The notes beneath the pieces are model-generated. The model saw only the letters and a list, made by a program, of their open reading frames with translations. It did not search any database and was not told the origin of the DNA. Shown in pieces: positions 1 through 9,522 of a stretch of DNA of 22,452 nucleotides. The stretch's first letter is position 1, and every line of letters starts with the position of its first letter. The translations under genes were made by a program, and so were the position numbers. Source of the stretch: a virus; IMG/VR virus record IMGVR_UViG_3300042549_003501, positions 1 through 22,452 of that record, one strand, 5' to 3'.

Positions 1-248
1 TTACCAATGATTGGGAACGTAGAAAGAAAGAGCACGTTAAAACGAAGGGACAGTTTATCAAAGGCTTTGTGAAAAAGGTTTCTACAGGAGATGATGCGTT
101 GTTATGGGAAAATACTATCAAGAAAACAATGCATTGCGGCATAGTAGATTCAATAAAATGTAGAGATGGATGGACAGAAACGATTAGCCCGGAACTACTA
201 CACAAAATAGTAGATGAAACCTTCACTCAAATATATGGGGATTCCTAG
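1..248 (+). CDS. 3' end of an unknown plus-strand gene (partial)
   Basis: An open frame of about 81 codons runs in from the left window edge (first whole codon at position 3) and stops at TAG 246-248. There is no start codon in the window, so this is the C-terminal part of a longer protein. The visible part is polar and charged, with a run of K/R/E near its beginning (WERRKKEHVKTKGQF) and an ending QIYGDS. I recognise no domain. It converges on the zinc protease gene, and their 3' ends overlap by 26 bases. The absence of stops over 82 codons in AT-rich DNA and the normal amino-acid mix favour a real gene, but a chance frame cannot be excluded. Confidence 0.5.
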   Translation, partial: TNDWERRKKEHVKTKGQFIKGFVKKVSTGDDALLWENTIKKTMHCGIVDSIKCRDGWTETISPELLHKIVDETFTQIYGDS

Positions 249-747
249 CGCCGTAAATTTTTATCATTTTTCCAGCCATTATATCTGCCATAGCTTCAAT
301 GGGTGAACCAGGGTAACTTGAATTGGGTTTTATCATATCAAGTTCGTGTTGTCTTACGTGTACGAGTTCGTGAAAAACCGTTCTTAAAAGGTCCACTAAG
401 TTACGATTTTTAGCATAGACCCAAATTTTACCACTGCCGGGAACATGTCCACCGGTATGATGATTGCCTTGCGCTTCATCTGTGTCCATGCTTAGTTCAA
501 TTGCAGGTATATCTTTTATTCCAAACTTTTTACAAATCCATTCAACTGCTTTTGCTATTTCAGCAGCTTTGTTATCATCAATTTCTTCATCCAAGCTTTG
601 GATTGCTTTTTTAGCTACATTTCTTTCTTTTTTGGCATCTTTTACTAATTTGTCAAGAACACTGTATCTATGTTTATCTAAGGTAGGTAATCCATATTCT
701 GGATTTTCAGTGATTAAATTTTCTGTTAAAAACTCTTTAGCTCTCAT
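223..747 (-). CDS. Zinc metalloprotease (HExxH) with capsid-targeting-like N-terminus
   Basis: 174 aa. The HExxH zinc site is at residues 126-130 (HELVH) inside a hydrophobic helix, followed by SPIEAMADIMAGK (148-160). Its Glu151 is a plausible third zinc ligand, as in gluzincins. A charged helix-rich region (about 30-70) precedes the catalytic part. The first 15 residues contain two copies of a hydrophobic-x-T/I-E-N motif (EFLTEN, LITEN). They resemble the cleaved capsid-targeting peptide of T4 internal proteins, whose consensus begins MKTYQEFIAEA. The ATG at 745-747 has an AAGG 6-7 bases upstream. The substrate is unknown. It could be a protease packaged in the head and released into the host, or simply an intracellular peptidase. 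Zincin assignment is firm; packaging is inference. Confidence 0.85.
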   Translation of the reverse strand: MRAKEFLTENLITENPEYGLPTLDKHRYSVLDKLVKDAKKERNVAKKAIQSLDEEIDDNKAAEIAKAVEWICKKFGIKDIPAIELSMDTDEAQGNHHTGGHVPGSGKIWVYAKNRNLVDLLRTVFHELVHVRQHELDMIKPNSSYPGSPIEAMADIMAGKMIKIYGARNPHIFE

Positions 748-1890: not shown

Positions 1891-2042
1891 TTATTTTTTA
1901 CCTTATTTGAAATAATTTCATCACTTACTTCTGTTTTCCAAACATTTGGAAATATACCATGTACGAATAACATAAACGCCCAACGCCAAGCTCTTAATAA
2001 ATGCTTGAAATATCCTATGTTACTATCAGTCAAATGACTCAT
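1884..2042 (-). CDS. Small membrane-associated protein with HGIFP motif
   Basis: 52 aa. The ATG (2040-2042) overlaps the stop of the sigma-like gene as TAATG, and the stop TAG (1884-1886) lies 7 bases inside dps. It therefore fills the gap between two real genes with coupled translation on both sides. Residues 10-33 have the pattern YFKHLLRAWRWAFMLFVHG followed by IFP and then V-S-D-E. This resembles small marine bacterial and phage proteins with one hydrophobic helix carrying H-x-L, A-W-R and HG-x-FP. I know no function for that family. A single amphipathic or membrane helix is likely (about 15-31). Confidence 0.72.
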   Translation of the reverse strand: MSHLTDSNIGYFKHLLRAWRWAFMLFVHGIFPNVWKTEVSDEIISNKVKNKC

Positions 2043-2731
2043 TATTTCTTCATTTGCTTATTTAATCTAGTAGCTGTTTTAGTCATAGGATTAACGCGCT
2101 TGGTTTTTTTAGTTTTTCTAGCTTGAGCTACTTTTGTTCGTTGTCTTGTTTGTTTCATTTTTGCTGATTTTTTAAGATCAGGTGCTGCTGAGCAATGTGA
2201 AACATCAGGCATCGTTCTGCCTTTTCTTGGACCAGATTCACAACGCCACTTCATAGAAATACTACCTGATTTGGCGTTCTTTTTGAATACTAGTCTATGT
2301 TCTGTTATATAATAGTCTACTAATTCATAGTTAGCTTTTATTAATCTTAAAAGTGCTCGTCTTAACAAAACCTGCACTCTAGATGGAGATATATTCATTT
2401 TTTTAGCTATTTCTGAAAGAGTATTTTCTTCTTGATCAAATAATCCAAATCGTAGTGTTAGCAATAACTTGTCGCGTGACGGCAATTCTGAAACAATTTT
2501 TTCTATTTTATTTTTTAATGAATCATCCATTACAACTTTTTCTAGTTCGGGATCATAGATAAATTCTTGAGGGTTAAAATCACTTATGGTAGATGCCTTA
2601 TCCATAACAGGGTCATCTAATTGCGGCATCGCATAATTTTCGTAATCTTTGCCGTAAGTTTTACCGGTTGGATTATACTTCTTAGCCCTAACGGCATCTG
2701 TCCATTCTGTCACGAATTCTTTTGCTCTCAT
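2042..2731 (-). CDS. Sigma-70 region 4 protein with basic tail and capsid-targeting-like N-terminus
   Basis: 229 aa in three parts. Residues 1-10 (MRAKEFVTEW) resemble the cleaved targeting peptide of T4 internal proteins. Residues 71-132 match sigma-70 region 4. LPSRDKLLLTLRFGL corresponds to the L-x-x-R-E-R-x-V-L-x-x-R-F-G-L signature, followed by TLSEIAKKM and a second helix SPSRVQVLLRRALLRL, the helix-turn-helix that reads the -35 element. Residues 155-229 are a Lys/Arg-rich tail with two Cys (RCESGPRKGR, SHC) that probably binds nucleic acid. Regions 1-3 of sigma are absent, so it cannot melt a promoter alone. It could act like a co-activator or anti-sigma that occupies the beta-flap, as T4 gp33 does. 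It lies in a late run, 3 bases after the 146-aa gene. Confidence 0.82.
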   Translation of the reverse strand: MRAKEFVTEWTDAVRAKKYNPTGKTYGKDYENYAMPQLDDPVMDKASTISDFNPQEFIYDPELEKVVMDDSLKNKIEKIVSELPSRDKLLLTLRFGLFDQEENTLSEIAKKMNISPSRVQVLLRRALLRLIKANYELVDYYITEHRLVFKKNAKSGSISMKWRCESGPRKGRTMPDVSHCSAAPDLKKSAKMKQTRQRTKVAQARKTKKTKRVNPMTKTATRLNKQMKK

Positions 2732-2734
2732 TTT

Positions 2735-3175
2735 TTATCTACTCCGCACTAAGTAATATATGACTGAACTGCTATCTTCATCTCTTTTAAGTTTGTACCC
2801 TAACTTGTCGGCATATTTTTCAACCATTCTGTCATACAATTTAACTCTACCAGTTGGAGTTTTCGTGCCTGGATCACCTGTCTCTTTGTCTGCTCCAAAC
2901 GTAATCTCATGTGGCTGCACTTTTTGAATAAATTCTATAATAACTTTGAGAACAGTGCTGAATATCTTATAAGCATCACCCTCGTTTGTTACATCATATG
3001 ACCTGTTTTTAGAGAATTCAACTACGTAACTAGCCCCTTCACCTTCAATCTTGTCAAATGTTATGTGTAAGCGACTTCCGTCAGGTAACTTAACTTCAAC
3101 CTCATAGTCGCCACCATACTCTGAGCGTCCTAATTCTGCTGAATAGGGTGAGTCAAATACTTCAAATATTCTCAT
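2735..3175 (-). CDS. Conserved-type phage protein, unknown
   Basis: 146 aa, predicted alpha+beta. It starts MRIFEVFDSPYSAE, then has beta strands rich in polar residues (DYEVEVKLPDGSRLHITF), the segment YDVTNEGDAYKIFSTVLKVI (about 60-79), PHEITFGADKE and a C-terminal half GRVKLYDRMVEKYADKLGYKLKR. The layout suggests a compact single domain, but I cannot name it. Its start loosely recalls the targeting peptides of the neighbours (M-R-x-F-E-x-F) without the T-E site. The ATG overlaps the stop of the 318-aa gene as ATGA, so it is translationally coupled. Confidence 0.75.
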   Translation of the reverse strand: MRIFEVFDSPYSAELGRSEYGGDYEVEVKLPDGSRLHITFDKIEGEGASYVVEFSKNRSYDVTNEGDAYKIFSTVLKVIIEFIQKVQPHEITFGADKETGDPGTKTPTGRVKLYDRMVEKYADKLGYKLKRDEDSSSVIYYLVRSR

Positions 3176-4128
3176 TTTTTATCTCTTGTACTTTTAGTAG
3201 CTACATTCTTTGCCTTACCTTGTCTTTCAGGATTTGGATCTTGTCTACGTTTTCTGCTAGCGGCACTTGCTCTCTTTTTTTTACCTAGTGCGTGTGCTTT
3301 CTTTTGTGGTAAGCATTTTGGCTTACCTTCGCTTTCACTGCCTCTAGCACAAGCACCTCTGATCTTACCATCAGGACCAAATCTAACCCACTTTTCTTTG
3401 AACCATTTGCGTAAGTCTTCTTCTAGTTGTTCTTCACTTACACTTTCTTTAGGTACACAGTTGGGAACCATTTTACCACTTTTCTTTTTCATACCCACTT
3501 GTTTGTGTGTATCCCAACATGCTTCTTCTAAATCCACGCCTTCATCAGTTTTTTTATTAGCATTGATATATTTTCTGTACACAGCCGCAGCTTCAGATTT
3601 TCCTGCTGCTTTAGCTCTTTGTTCCATAGCAACAGCAGCTTGTATTTTGTGAGCATGGCTACGACCGCTATTACGAATTTTTGAAACACTTGCTTTAGCA
3701 TCTGCTTCAGTAGCAAATTTTAAACCAGTAATAGTACCTTTAGGATTCTCGTCTGTATATAAATCACTATGTTTTTTACTATTAGCAGGCTGTCCCGGCT
3801 TTCTTGCTATTCTAGAATTATCTTCTTCAATGCCTTCGTTTGATTTTTTGTTTTTGACACAGTTTGGATATGTTTTTCCAAACATTTTTTTGTTGCCTTC
3901 TTTGTGATAACCCTTCCAACAGGCTTCATCTATATTGTGTCGTGAATGATCTCCGTGCGTTTCACACATGCTACAATCAGGACAAGTCATTTCCATGACA
4001 ACGCCTTCATTGTGCTTCTTCTTACCGGCACAATGAGCTTTTTGGCTAAAGCCTTTGGGATGACTACAGTTGATAGAGCGTTTATATTTTTCGCTCCAAG
4101 CTTCTGTTATAAACTCACCAGCTCTCAT
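3172..4128 (-). CDS. Modular basic Cys-rich protein with capsid-targeting-like N-terminus
   Basis: 318 aa, strongly basic and built from small units. The N-terminus MRAGEFITEA is almost superposable on the T4 targeting peptide (E-F-I-x-E-A). Units are: 11-38, an S-x-N-C-S-x-P-K-G-F-S-Q-K-A-H-C motif; 49-59, CPDCSMCETHG, a possible zinc knuckle; 69-92 and 202-226, two copies of E-A-C-W ... G-K ... P-N-C-V; 135-190, a helical unit with RSHAHKIQAAVAMEQRA; 238-318, a Lys/Arg-rich unit containing GPDGKIRGACARGSE and DPNPERQGKAKN. Short acidic linkers (SNEGIEED, TDEGVDLEEA) separate them. The composition points to nucleic-acid contact inside the head. Start and stop overlap neighbouring genes by 4 bases (ATGA). 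Function is unknown. Confidence 0.8.
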   Translation of the reverse strand: MRAGEFITEAWSEKYKRSINCSHPKGFSQKAHCAGKKKHNEGVVMEMTCPDCSMCETHGDHSRHNIDEACWKGYHKEGNKKMFGKTYPNCVKNKKSNEGIEEDNSRIARKPGQPANSKKHSDLYTDENPKGTITGLKFATEADAKASVSKIRNSGRSHAHKIQAAVAMEQRAKAAGKSEAAAVYRKYINANKKTDEGVDLEEACWDTHKQVGMKKKSGKMVPNCVPKESVSEEQLEEDLRKWFKEKWVRFGPDGKIRGACARGSESEGKPKCLPQKKAHALGKKKRASAASRKRRQDPNPERQGKAKNVATKSTRDKK

Positions 4129-6818
4129 TTGCTTTTATTACCCCAATTACTTGCACCCACTTTGCGGCACTTTACTAACGCACCTGAAGCATACGCACTT
4201 GGCCAAACTTTGTAGCGCGATTTTACTTTATGATAGCAAGCATCTTTATTGCCTTCTTCGTTTAGTTCGCTTTCTGCTACTAGCTTACCGCCGCATTTGG
4301 GGCACTTATCAGTATTTTCTGTAACTAATGTTGCTTTGTAGTTTTTATTAGGTAAACGAATAAGCTGATATGAATTTCCTTTTAAATCTTTTCGTTGCAT
4401 CATTTTCGGGCTGTGACTTGCCGCATCATACGCAACTTCTGCACCAAAATGTTTTTGTAGTGATGCTGAATCGTGCTCTTGATCAGTATTTTCTGTTACA
4501 CTTTCGTTTTTAGGTTCCCAGTATCTTCCTTTACCCAACATATTATCTTGGTAACCATACCACTTACCTGATTTACTTTGTTTTAATCCTGCACGACTAG
4601 CATCAGTTTCTTTTCCTGCCGGTACATTGTAAAAAAACATACCTTTAGGTTTGTTATAAGTTTTGCGTGTTTCGTGACCTAACTCATGTTCCATTTCTCT
4701 ACGCTTGAAGTCGCGTTTGCTCATTGAACCCCAATCATTTGTTTGTTCATTTTGAAGTCCTCGCATAATAGAACTTTCATACTTAGGTACAATAGGTTTA
4801 TCATCTGCGCCCATTACCTCGCCTTTACCTAATGACAAACGAGTTTTATGATTTTCTATTCTTCTTTCTATTTCTTGAATCTTAGCTTGATCATTTTGCT
4901 GTGTAGCCATTTGATGATACTTGATAAGTGTTTGTAGTTGAGGACTATTGCTATACACTTGTTGTGCTTGCTGCTGTCCTATTCCCCAAAGAGAAGCTAA
5001 CAGTGCTGTACCTGCTAATACTTTTCCTATTACTCCTTCGGACATTTCTCTGTCCATCATGGTTAATGTATCATAGTCAATATAAAAGTCTGTATCTGGA
5101 TCATATGCTAAGCCAGCTTTTGGATCGTAGTAATATACTTTACCGTTTCTTGCTCTGAATGGACCTTCTAATCCCTCACGCTCTTGATATTTTTCACGAT
5201 CAATGTTTGGTAGTATGCGATATCCTTCCGCCATACCATTTTGTTGTGTATTCTTCTTTTGAAATTTTGCTTGATTGATAGCTTGAAACTTATCATTTAA
5301 TTCTTTATATTCTTGTTTCATGGCAGGCGTACTCTTGCCACTCCTGGATGCAGCTACAATTTCATCTCTTCTTTGTGTAATGTCACTTTCTAATTGTGCT
5401 AATTTATCATCACTCATTTTCACATATGGAGCAATACTTGCCCTGTATTGTTCTAAGCGATCTTTCCTTGATTGCTCTTCATGTTTTAGTCCATCTCTGT
5501 ATCCAGCTGTATAATCATTTGAGCCTGGGCCATACTTTGAACTGGCTCTGGGATCCGAACTGCCTCTCTTACCATCGCTGAATCCAGCTTGATATGCTGA
5601 TGATTTATTTTCTTCACCTTCTGCCATACCTTGACCCATTTGTTTATGTTCCAAATATTCACGAATAGTATTCAAGTAATCGTTTGCTTTGATAATCTTT
5701 TCTTGAACCCAACCTTCAATACCCACTTCTTCAGGAATGTCTTTGATCAGTTCGTATACTTGTTTAGCGTTTTTAGCAGATTGAAAAAGATCACTTAAAG
5801 CCATTTCAACTTCGTGATCAGTTCTGTCTTTTGCTTTTGGAATAAATCCTTGTTTGTATTTCTTACCTTGTCCAGGAACAATGATAATGTCTTCTTCATC
5901 AAGTTTGGCTTCTTTCATACTTTCTTTAAACATATCATTTAGATTTACTTCTCGTGTACCCGACACTTCAACATCCCCTTCGTTTTGATCTAGCCATTTT
6001 TCAAATGCTTCTTGACTTTTAAATGTTTTCTTCCACTTATTGCTATTTACGCCACGAACTCCATATGCTTCTATACCAACTTTAGTTTCTTCTTTGGCTT
6101 CTTCAATTTTTTTAGACATTTTTTGTTTTAACGCTTGAATCTTTTTTTGATATAATTTACATTTTTCATCGTCGCCTGCACGATTTGCTGCTAATGCTAA
6201 TTCTTCATACTTTGATATTTGTTTTTTATCATCTGTAGATGCGCTTTCTGACACGCCTTGATCTTTGTTTGCTAATTTGTCTAACTTGTAATAGCGGTCA
6301 AAATGCTTCTTAGAGGTTTTAGTGTCGCCCTTCATACTAGCATCTTGTGACTTGGCTATTTCTTGCCCAATACGAGTTTGTATATCTTTACCTGTAGCCA
6401 ACCGCTTTATGTCTTTTACTAATCCTTCCGCCACACCTTGCTTATCACCAGTACCTTTGCAGGTTGGGCATTTTACTTTTTCAGCACCTTGTTTATTGTC
6501 GGCAAACAACTTGCTACCTAACTTATACATACTCTTACGACCATGACAAGTGGTGCAATTGGTATCTTGGTGCCTGACAGTTTTGCCTGGCATATGATCT
6601 ACATCATGTGGGAAGCCTTCCGCCACACCTTGGTCTTGAGATTCTTTAACTGATTTACTGTTAGCAAACTTTTCATTAGTCTTTTTACCAGTTAATAAGT
6701 TGCCGCCTTTTTCGTTAGGATAAATTCCTTTACCGCGTGTTTGTGTTTTGCCTACAGGCGTAGCAACAGTAGCTATAGCCCCTGAAGTAGTTGATTCTGT
6801 AAAATGAGTGCTTTTCAT
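4125..6818 (-). CDS. Long modular protein with repeated GVAEG-type linkers (possible head polyprotein)
   Basis: The frame opens at ATG 6830, but I prefer the ATG at 6816-6818. It follows a GGAT, leaves a short leader after the late promoter, and gives an N-terminus MKSTHFTES like the targeting peptides of neighbours (897-898 aa). Numbered from 6830, eight short motifs of the form hydrophobic-x-E-[GSN] punctuate the chain: 68-72, 132-136, 192-196, 401-405, 532-536, 596-600, 777-781 and 835-839. Between them lie small modules. These are a DnaJ-type Cys motif pair (CTTCHG, CPTCKGTG, 92-128), helical units, a DHEVEMALSDLF...IPEEVG unit (338-396), a Tyr/Asp-rich unit with a hydrophobic helix (565-618), MSKRDFKRREMEHELGHE (703-720), a CPKCGGK knuckle and a C-terminal KVWPSAYASGALVKCRKVG unit. 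No enzyme is recognised. Confidence 0.82.
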   Translation of the reverse strand: MKSTHFTESTTSGAIATVATPVGKTQTRGKGIYPNEKGGNLLTGKKTNEKFANSKSVKESQDQGVAEGFPHDVDHMPGKTVRHQDTNCTTCHGRKSMYKLGSKLFADNKQGAEKVKCPTCKGTGDKQGVAEGLVKDIKRLATGKDIQTRIGQEIAKSQDASMKGDTKTSKKHFDRYYKLDKLANKDQGVSESASTDDKKQISKYEELALAANRAGDDEKCKLYQKKIQALKQKMSKKIEEAKEETKVGIEAYGVRGVNSNKWKKTFKSQEAFEKWLDQNEGDVEVSGTREVNLNDMFKESMKEAKLDEEDIIIVPGQGKKYKQGFIPKAKDRTDHEVEMALSDLFQSAKNAKQVYELIKDIPEEVGIEGWVQEKIIKANDYLNTIREYLEHKQMGQGMAEGEENKSSAYQAGFSDGKRGSSDPRASSKYGPGSNDYTAGYRDGLKHEEQSRKDRLEQYRASIAPYVKMSDDKLAQLESDITQRRDEIVAASRSGKSTPAMKQEYKELNDKFQAINQAKFQKKNTQQNGMAEGYRILPNIDREKYQEREGLEGPFRARNGKVYYYDPKAGLAYDPDTDFYIDYDTLTMMDREMSEGVIGKVLAGTALLASLWGIGQQQAQQVYSNSPQLQTLIKYHQMATQQNDQAKIQEIERRIENHKTRLSLGKGEVMGADDKPIVPKYESSIMRGLQNEQTNDWGSMSKRDFKRREMEHELGHETRKTYNKPKGMFFYNVPAGKETDASRAGLKQSKSGKWYGYQDNMLGKGRYWEPKNESVTENTDQEHDSASLQKHFGAEVAYDAASHSPKMMQRKDLKGNSYQLIRLPNKNYKATLVTENTDKCPKCGGKLVAESELNEEGNKDACYHKVKSRYKVWPSAYASGALVKCRKVGASNWGNKSK

Positions 6819-6842
6819 AATGAAATCCATAAGTGATATGTA

Positions 6843-6865: not shown

Positions 6866-7552
6866 TTAAGGTTTGTTTTTACAACGGTCGAAATGCCAAA
6901 CTTTAATCCCTCCGGCACCGCCAGTCTTCCCGCAATGTGGACAAGTTACTATTTCGTGTTTTTTTATAGTTTTACCTAGACGAGTAGCCGATCTCTTTGC
7001 GATAGCTTCGGGTGATTTAGGTTTCCCCTTTTGACTTTCACTCATCTTGGGATATGTTTTAGTTGATTTAGTTAGCGTTCTCTTTGCTATAGACTCAGGT
7101 GATTTAGGTTTACCTTTTAACGCATTACTTACTTCAGGACAAGGCTTTCCTTTTTTACGGTCACTAACATCCGGCCGCGATCTTCCTAATAATTTTTGAC
7201 TCCTACTTTGATTGGCTTGCAGAGTCTGTTTGACTCCAGTTCCTCCTTCACCGCCGTCAGTACGATTATGTAGTATACCTGTCTTTATATCTTTTCTTCC
7301 GTACCATCGTATATATCTTCTTTCTAATGCGAATGCTCCCACTTCTGTAAGATTTGATTCCATAATAACAATACGATGATTAGAAGGGACATGAACACCT
7401 TTCCATTTACCATCTACATTATCCTTATACCTATGGTCAGACCAAGCTCTACTTTCCTTTCCTTTGCCGATATAATATGGAGTACCGTCTTTGCGAAGGT
7501 AAGCATATGTATAAAATCCGTTAGGTGAGTTAGTTTTAAAATAAATAGTCAT
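6866..7552 (-). CDS. GIY-YIG homing endonuclease with NUMOD3 repeats
   Basis: 228 aa from the ATG at 7550-7552, chosen because AAAGGAG lies 8 bases upstream. The longer frame to 7624 has no ribosome site and overlaps a promoter box. The GIY-YIG domain occupies about 10-100: GFYTYAYL (GIY position), YYIGKG (YIG position, 26-31), a conserved Glu in [11 protein letters not shown] and Asn in [11 protein letters not shown]. After it come KGKP-containing NUMOD3 DNA-binding repeats (near 134, 146 and 175). The end is a putative zinc finger (Cys204, Cys207, His220, Cys224). Free-standing enzymes of this kind (T4 Seg type) cut phage DNA lacking the gene and spread by repair. It sits between a terminator and the promoter of the next run, a typical invasion point. 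Confidence 0.9.
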
Positions 7553-7614
7553 GCTGATAGCTCCTTTATAGCTGTTAGAGTAGTTGGGAATCCCCATTCC
7601 GCGAACTACACTAT

Positions 7615-7622
7615 TATTTATC
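7615..7622 (-). promoter_or_regulatory. Late-type promoter box (GATAAATA) for the homing endonuclease
   Basis: GATAAATA on the minus strand, about 60 bases before the chosen start and just after the terminator of the upstream gene. It lies inside the 5' extension of the endonuclease frame, which is one reason for rejecting that extension. Confidence 0.5.
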
Positions 7623-7632
7623 ATACGTGATT

Positions 7633-8607: not shown

Positions 8608-9522
8608 TTATTTTTCTGAGATATAATCAGTAGATTCGGAAATATCTATTTCTCTACCTTTAGCTATTGGACGATTGCCCTGCTTTTCTTTGAAGTTTTC
8701 ATATTGAATTAAAGCTTTTAACATATTCTCAACTACACCTGCTTCGTAAAGAGAATGATAAAGACTGCTGTATCTTTTTTCTTTGATCATTTCTACCATG
8801 CTAGAAAACTTTCTTGTTAAGTTACTTAGCAATGATTTTTCATCCCAAGTACCCATACCACCATCTGGTACTATTAAATGACCTTGTTCTGGATCGTTGA
8901 CGAGAGTTGCTTCTTCAACACCTTCTTCATTTACTTGATCACCAATAATACCAGCATCTAACATCTTTACTGCTACATCAGCCAAGTTTTTGTTTTGTTG
9001 TGTTCTAGGGTATAAACTCATTACCATTGCTAATTTTTGTCTTTCGTTTAAGTTAGGCCAAGCGTTTCTTATTTCTGACGCACTTGTTATACCGGGACCA
9101 AACTCAATAGTTGGTAAGTATTCTATATAAGCATGTTTATTAAAAGATTCTAAGTTGTTGGGGTCATATGGTTGAAAGTATGAAGGTGATCCATCTTTTT
9201 TAGTGCCACCGGGCTTGGGCTGTTCATTTCTGTCTTTTTCACTACGAACGAATATTAACACATCACTTTCAGGATCATACTTTTGAGTAATTTCTTCAGC
9301 TTTGAATGGACTTTTTACTTGTACAAATTGATTGGGATTAACTCCAGCTAGTTGTGCTAGTTTCTTTTTAATTTCAAAAGGGAACGGACGAGTTTTAGTA
9401 TCGTTAGTAGCTGCTAAGTATATATCAGCATCTGGAAACTTTTCTTGTGCGGCTTTATACAGTGAATAATGTCCTGCATGATAAGGGTGATAGCCACCAG
9501 GTAATACTACAATCTTTTTCAT
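8608..9522 (-). CDS. Nucleotidyltransferase (HxGH superfamily) with extra C-terminal module
   Basis: 304 aa. Residues 1-160 form a cytidylyltransferase-like Rossmann domain: PGGYHPYHAGHYSLY, with HAGH at 15-18 as the HxGH nucleotide-binding site, and GITSASEIRNAW (144-155), the counterpart of the ISSTxIR signature. Such enzymes join a nucleoside monophosphate from NTP to a phosphorylated substrate, as in NAD, CoA or CDP-alcohol synthesis. The substrate here is unknown. After about 195 a linker NEEGVEEATL leads to a module with VPDGGMGTWDEKSLLSNLTRKF and a helical end that is not part of the catalytic fold. The linker resembles those of the 898-aa protein. AGGAACT precedes the ATG. Confidence 0.85.
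   Translation of the reverse strand: MKKIVVLPGGYHPYHAGHYSLYKAAQEKFPDADIYLAATNDTKTRPFPFEIKKKLAQLAGVNPNQFVQVKSPFKAEEITQKYDPESDVLIFVRSEKDRNEQPKPGGTKKDGSPSYFQPYDPNNLESFNKHAYIEYLPTIEFGPGITSASEIRNAWPNLNERQKLAMVMSLYPRTQQNKNLADVAVKMLDAGIIGDQVNEEGVEEATLVNDPEQGHLIVPDGGMGTWDEKSLLSNLTRKFSSMVEMIKEKRYSSLYHSLYEAGVVENMLKALIQYENFKEKQGNRPIAKGREIDISESTDYISEK

Follow-up and report, generated by a model that had tools for sequence, protein, structure and literature searches.

A modular phage gene as a probable precursor of internal-head cargo proteins, with cassettes exchanged at a DNA word encoding the predicted cleavage site

What does a phage make from a long open reading frame in which short, glutamate-containing motifs recur between otherwise dissimilar modules? 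We examined such an ORF in a window of 22,452 bases, a viral record that is a fragment of a T4-like phage (Table 1). We assign the window to this group by its gene set, which includes ClpA-like, Dps-like and sigma-like genes along with genes that, from their translations, we take to encode a PhoH, a clamp-loader and a GroES-like protein. One neighbour gene has its closest relatives on contigs of up to 267 kb, and the capsid protein of the relatives is 64-67% identical to that of jumbo T4-like isolates, e.g. Vibrio phage 2.275.O, PA5oct and 121Q.

The ORF encodes 901 aa from the ATG at 6830, not the 898 given in the initial annotation, whose eight linker motifs all lie at the residues it named. 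The pattern [VM]xE[GSN] occurs 10 times (1.03 expected) and the stricter G[VM][AS]E[GS] five times (0.01 expected), with neither count reached in any of 2,000 shuffles. Further sites of the same form had gone unlisted, namely HFTE|S (10-12), SVKE|S (61-63), MFKE|S (301), SMKE|A (305) and LVAE|S (851-853), and the ORF opens with a peptide of about 10 residues that itself ends in hydrophobic-x-Glu, MDFIMKSTHFTE|S. With 10-14 sites fitting the form, the product number of "about nine" suggested earlier is an estimate only. From comparative sequence analysis, we propose that the ORF is probably the precursor of several small internal-head cargo proteins, which a protease would cut in the prohead and whose modules would be exchanged at an 18-nt DNA word.

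Table 1. Coordinates of the features discussed; a vertical bar within a motif marks the predicted cut.
Feature	Position	Strand	Remark
Next gene, targeting-like peptide MRAGEFITE|A	3172..4128	(-)	first module also behind QGVAE in L061
Modular ORF, proposed cargo polyprotein, 901 aa	4125..6830	(-)	open; individual modules also found in other phages
C-terminal module DACYHKVKSRYKVWPSAYASGALVKCRK (aa 857-901)	4128..4262	(-)	phrog_38880/727; 414 phage records
Site LVAE|S (aa 850-854)	4269..4283	(-)	
Site LVTE|N (aa 835-839)	4314..4328	(-)	
Site SVTE|N (aa 777-781)	4488..4502	(-)	
Hydrophobic leader GVIGKVLAGTALLASLWGIGQQQAQQ (aa 599-624)	4959..5036	(-)	begins at predicted cut
Site MSE|GV (aa 596-600)	5031..5045	(-)	SLDE|G before same module in L247
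Linker GMAE|G (aa 532-536)	5223..5237	(-)	swap border; DMAE|G in L120
Linker GMAE|G (aa 401-405)	5616..5630	(-)	swap border; TIE|G in L120
Linker GVSE|S (aa 192-196)	6243..6257	(-)	
Linker GVAE|G (aa 132-136)	6423..6437	(-)	following module elsewhere after QGVAE, QGMEE, KQFAE, LAEE
Linker GVAE|G (aa 68-72)	6615..6629	(-)	full DNA word CAAGGTGTGGCGGAAGGC; module swap border vs L120
Site SVKE|S (aa 60-64)	6639..6653	(-)	
End of N-terminal targeting-like peptide HFTE|S (aa 9-13)	6792..6806	(-)	QFTE|S in relative L120
Cytidylyltransferase-like gene	8608..9522	(-)	without 114-aa GVAEG module present in relative L121

The earlier view that these sites form borders between distinct modules is borne out by a close relative, in which the stretches between sites are replaced and the N-terminal, middle and C-terminal parts keep 87-96% DNA identity. 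Across the related loci L120-L125, identity to the window ORF is 94-95% over the N-terminal 71 residues, 87% over the middle module and 95-96% over the C-terminal third, with unrelated modules swapped between these shared parts and the borders lying at or next to hydrophobic-x-Glu sites. The 114-aa module of L121, missing from the window gene at 8608-9522, is likewise inserted in frame at GVAEG. The window's own modules are also found elsewhere after unrelated upstream sequence, and in nearly all cases the Glu is kept. For example, the module at residue 599 is preceded elsewhere by EMSE|G and SLDE|G, and (G/A)FPHDVDHMPG by QGVAE, KGMAE, FVKE or TKKE, the site in L282 being displaced by one residue; some modules lack a site, as the one in L288 does before (G/A)FPHDVDHMPG. 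The comparison of homologues that had been proposed as a check finds the linker Glu and a hydrophobic P3 kept while modules and upstream sequence are swapped.

The same modules are also found in stand-alone genes, directly after an N-terminal peptide of the T4 capsid-targeting type. The window gene that reads MRAGEFITE|AWSEKYKRSINCSHPKGFSQKAHC is matched by QGVAE|EWSQKYKNSINCSHPKGFSQRAHC in L061, so that a module with an AWSEKYK-type start follows MRAGEFITE|AWSEKYK in one case and the internal QGVAE|EWSQKYK of another phage in the other. Similarly, MKIAEIIQE|ASGYIPSEKQKND in L189 pairs with QGVAE|ASGYIPSEKQKND in L151 and AMSE|ASGYIPSEKQKND in L152, and MKSSDFVVE|AEAWQTSKGKNK in L103 with LLNE|AEAWQTSKGKNK in L086. 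Of the 171 different internal contexts compared, 53% have Glu at P1 and 58% a hydrophobic residue at P3 (V 22%, L 20%, I 9%, M 4%). The two features occur together in 78 contexts (46%), fewer than half but well above the 2.3% at random positions. The internal sites coincide with those at which targeting peptides would be cut from the same modules elsewhere.

These chains might instead be uncut multi-domain proteins of the virion or cytoplasm, their domains shuffled and their E-G motifs serving merely as flexible linkers. Pfam matches among the linker ORFs are to GNAT, ParB_N, deaminase, GH19 and LysM, and the presence of many such domains per chain (GNAT, ParB_N, deaminase, GH19) is in keeping with this idea, as is the fact that domain shuffling by itself requires no cutting. 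We nevertheless consider an uncut chain unlikely, because the constraint at module borders is site-like (P3 and P1 fixed, P2 free) and far above chance, because the match to N-terminal targeting sites would be left unexplained, and because the leaders would be buried.

The leaders in question are signal-type segments lying behind linkers, of two types, GWKDVVAGGAMTLGALGANA and RRGFLKG. When hydrophobic leader segments with GW[KR] were collected without requiring Glu, all 20 had Glu at P1 and 19 of the 20 had V, L or I at P3, with P2 free. Several leader segments end in signal-peptidase-like ANA, AQA or AEA, and others are Tat-like (RRGFLKG) and lie directly behind linkers, Pfam TAT_signal matching two members. 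A general hydropathy test behind linkers gave no excess (5 seen, 5.2 expected), and the effect is confined to specific signal-type segments. The signal-leader module of L121 had no match among phage isolates. Signal peptides work at N-termini, so internal leaders make the best sense if the chain is cut where they begin.

A protease suited to such cutting is present in the relatives. The S77 prohead protease (PF03420) was detected in 11 of 12 large relatives, the closest included, and these 11 also have the gp23 capsid family; gp21 is absent from the 22-kb window fragment itself. In the relatives, the capsid protein starts with MSKILLESRWDETKEALLEGLKGTRKSTMGVILENTKKQLLAESSAG and has an apparent cleavage site, LLAE|S. 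Targeting-like peptides also open the ORF's neighbours (MRAKEFLTE, MRAGEFITE, MRAKEFVTE), and among linker ORFs with a start they occur in 73 of 111, compared with 647 of 2,212 other ORFs. In T4, gp21 cleaves after L/I-x-E, the IP proteins are packaged by means of a 10-residue peptide and ejected, and Alt is likewise packaged and ejected (PMC9026906). The S77 enzyme, the targeting peptide and the sites resemble those of T4 and are of one kind, with cleavage a prediction from the resemblance. The polyprotein reading of the initial annotation thus gains support from the comparison of modules, linkers, swaps and sites and from the protease of the relatives.

Cutting could also take place outside the head, by another phage or host protease, with the modules acting in the infected cell. 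Linker genes are indeed located in the company of replication and chaperone genes rather than in the head operon, and promoter searches gave weak support for late expression: the T4 late promoter TATAAATA was not above chance in the window, and ATAAATA lies upstream of 23-27% of linker and targeting-peptide genes versus 15%, a modest enrichment. The T4 ip and alt genes likewise lie outside the main head operon; together with the resemblance of the N-termini to T4 capsid-targeting peptides and that of the site to the capsid protein's own LLAE|S, this makes processing elsewhere improbable in our view.

The linker is constrained at a further level, which the initial annotation did not see. Searching a viral collection with the fully degenerate back-translation of KQGVAEG retrieved at least 119 loci encoding the peptide, with linker ORFs carrying up to nine sites in a single open frame, and the linker proved to be conserved as an 18-nt DNA word, CAAGGTGTGGCGGAAGGC. 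The codons CAA GGT GTG GCG GAA GGC prevail across 181 distinct QGVAEG sites, with GCG used in 92% (11% in the background), GTG in 89% (24%) and GGC in 76% (31%). In an independent sample made up of the window and 80 loci retrieved via a neighbour gene, the word (up to three mismatches allowed) occurred in 129 copies, each of them read as QGVAEG within the longest ORF. The N-terminal targeting peptide, unlike the linker, shows free variation in its codons. Synonymous positions being near-invariant in the one and free in the other, the peptide must be constrained and something further must hold the DNA.

Shared DNA points to what this may be. A DNA module is common to another contig in 142 of 149 non-redundant linker ORFs, and 473 of 1,455 shared-block ends fall within 30 nt of a linker (126 expected). 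Left ends cluster where the word begins and right ends where it stops, with 40 linkers within shared blocks and 790 at block ends. Shared blocks therefore start and stop at the linker word, implying that an exchanged cassette runs from one linker to another. Linkers retained in two phages gave no usable pairs for measuring synonymous change, since two phages almost never have the same neighbours on both sides of a linker. Homology-based cassette exchange at the word, spreading only those copies that still match, would be the simplest account of the DNA conservation, and the word itself may promote exchange. The extreme form of this account, in which the linkers are a DNA recombination word only, with a peptide motif of no consequence in a chain that stays uncut, would fit the nearly invariant synonymous positions and the ending of shared blocks at the word, but is very improbable given that linkers with diverged DNA still retain hydrophobic-x-Glu, that 129 of 129 copies lie in one reading frame and that codon choice varies freely at N-terminal sites of this kind.

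Two other readings of the word were considered and rejected. Among bacterial and archaeal genomes, it gave two bacterial matches, both in ordinary bacterial sequence and at about chance level, speaking against a cellular source. The word ends in GGAAGG, which is ribosome-site-like, but start codons that could serve internal translation behind the linker showed no enrichment (ATG within 5 codons in 6%, background 12%). Isolates 2.275.O, Phosso, PA5oct and 121Q gave no exact linker match.

Combined, these results suggest a scheme in which the N-terminal ~12 residues of the ORF would act as a T4-type capsid-targeting peptide and bring the chain into the prohead core, where an S77-family prohead protease (T4 gp21 type) would cleave hydrophobic-x-Glu sites on the far side of the Glu, so that the peptide is lost and roughly ten modules of ~50-180 aa are freed. 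The freed modules would remain in the head and enter the host along with the DNA, and the cut would expose the Sec- or Tat-like leaders of some modules, allowing export or membrane insertion after entry. Phages would exchange modules at the near-invariant 18-nt word, and as this word encodes the cleavage site, each swap would preserve both the frame and the cut site.

The system encoded by the ORF is best read as a form of the T4 internal-protein and targeting-peptide system, one with cargo polyproteins of exchangeable modules. It resembles T4 IPI-III and Alt in its short N-terminal peptide ending in hydrophobic-x-Glu, S77 protease, P1 Glu and small, variable accessory proteins (PMC9026906). 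It differs from them in having many modules per chain, internal sites and exchange at a conserved DNA word; moreover, the T4 gp21 rule has L or I at P3, whereas sites here often have V or M. The T4 core proteins gp22 and gp67 are cut into internal peptides. They too yield several peptides from one precursor that are left inside the head, but as scaffold remnants, whereas the products predicted here are diverse domains, some enzymatic, that are unrelated between phages. In phiKZ and SPN3US, head proteins carry propeptides cut at S/A-x-E (PMC9026906, PMC5694885). These jumbo phages also have a Glu-specific head protease and ejected proteins, but the protease branch and the site are different, and the portions of PMC9026906 and PMC5694885 consulted mention no multi-module chains with repeated linkers. 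Cyanophage isolates have the same modules within the composite proteins of cluster T4-GC 119 (P-SSM2 PSSM2_123, Bellamy gp123), where DACYxKVKSRYxVWPSAYASG, KCWxGYxxxGMKxK and AAWTKKSGKNKxGG likewise stand behind hydrophobic-x-Glu. The T4-GC 119 gene adjoins gp15, gp16 or gp17, and relatives are annotated as structural or virion proteins in the S-B68 and S-SCSM1 records; unlike in the linker ORFs, QGVAEG is absent from the four proteins compared. No published description of such polyproteins was found in the open-access literature.

More tentatively, jumbo T4-like phages may possibly share a common cassette pool, with the 18-nt word serving as both protease site and junction and the cargo being injected and exported. 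If so, cassettes would plug in frame into any cargo gene, and cargo including endolysins, once injected into the cytoplasm, would reach the envelope from inside via the exposed Sec or Tat leaders. The cargo-polyprotein reading as such would account for the way in which large environmental phages vary the proteins that they bring into the host. It also opens the origin of phage-delivered effectors to testing and raises the possibility that host export systems are used by injected proteins. Unannotated "hypothetical" ORFs could be read as lists of cargo proteins by in silico cuts at hydrophobic-x-Glu, and cassettes with built-in cut sites would be a ready-made model for filling T4-type heads with cargo.

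Several further observations concern individual loci. Within modular linker ORFs, a hidden signal-type leader stands ahead of a GH19 endolysin domain in L023 and L046 and ahead of a LysM-GH19 chain in L079. A 310-aa stand-alone gene on the minus strand of L013 starts MKIDEVTRRDFLKGLGAAGVAAATGA, a Tat-like leader at a true N-terminus. Five loci (L128, L145, L068, L158 and L186) have a common block, AAGTTTC..TATTTTGATAAATACTCTATAACTTTGGGAAAC, ~30 nt before the start codon of linker genes, perhaps a promoter and leader.

In the window, a homing-endonuclease-like gene (phrog_314; 6866-7624, minus strand) is the immediate upstream neighbour of the polyprotein gene and might be a driver of exchange there; it is missing in L120-L125, where its two flanking genes are <100 bp apart. 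The gene at 2042-2731 (minus strand) encodes a sigma-70 region 4 domain (PF04545, 1.6e-10) behind the targeting-like MRAKEFVTE|W, and its product is possibly a sigma-like factor carried in the virion. At 223-747 (minus strand), a protein that has a zinc-protease-like HELVH motif and a weak phrog_87 match stands behind MRAKEFLTE|NLITE|N and is possibly a packaged metalloprotease.
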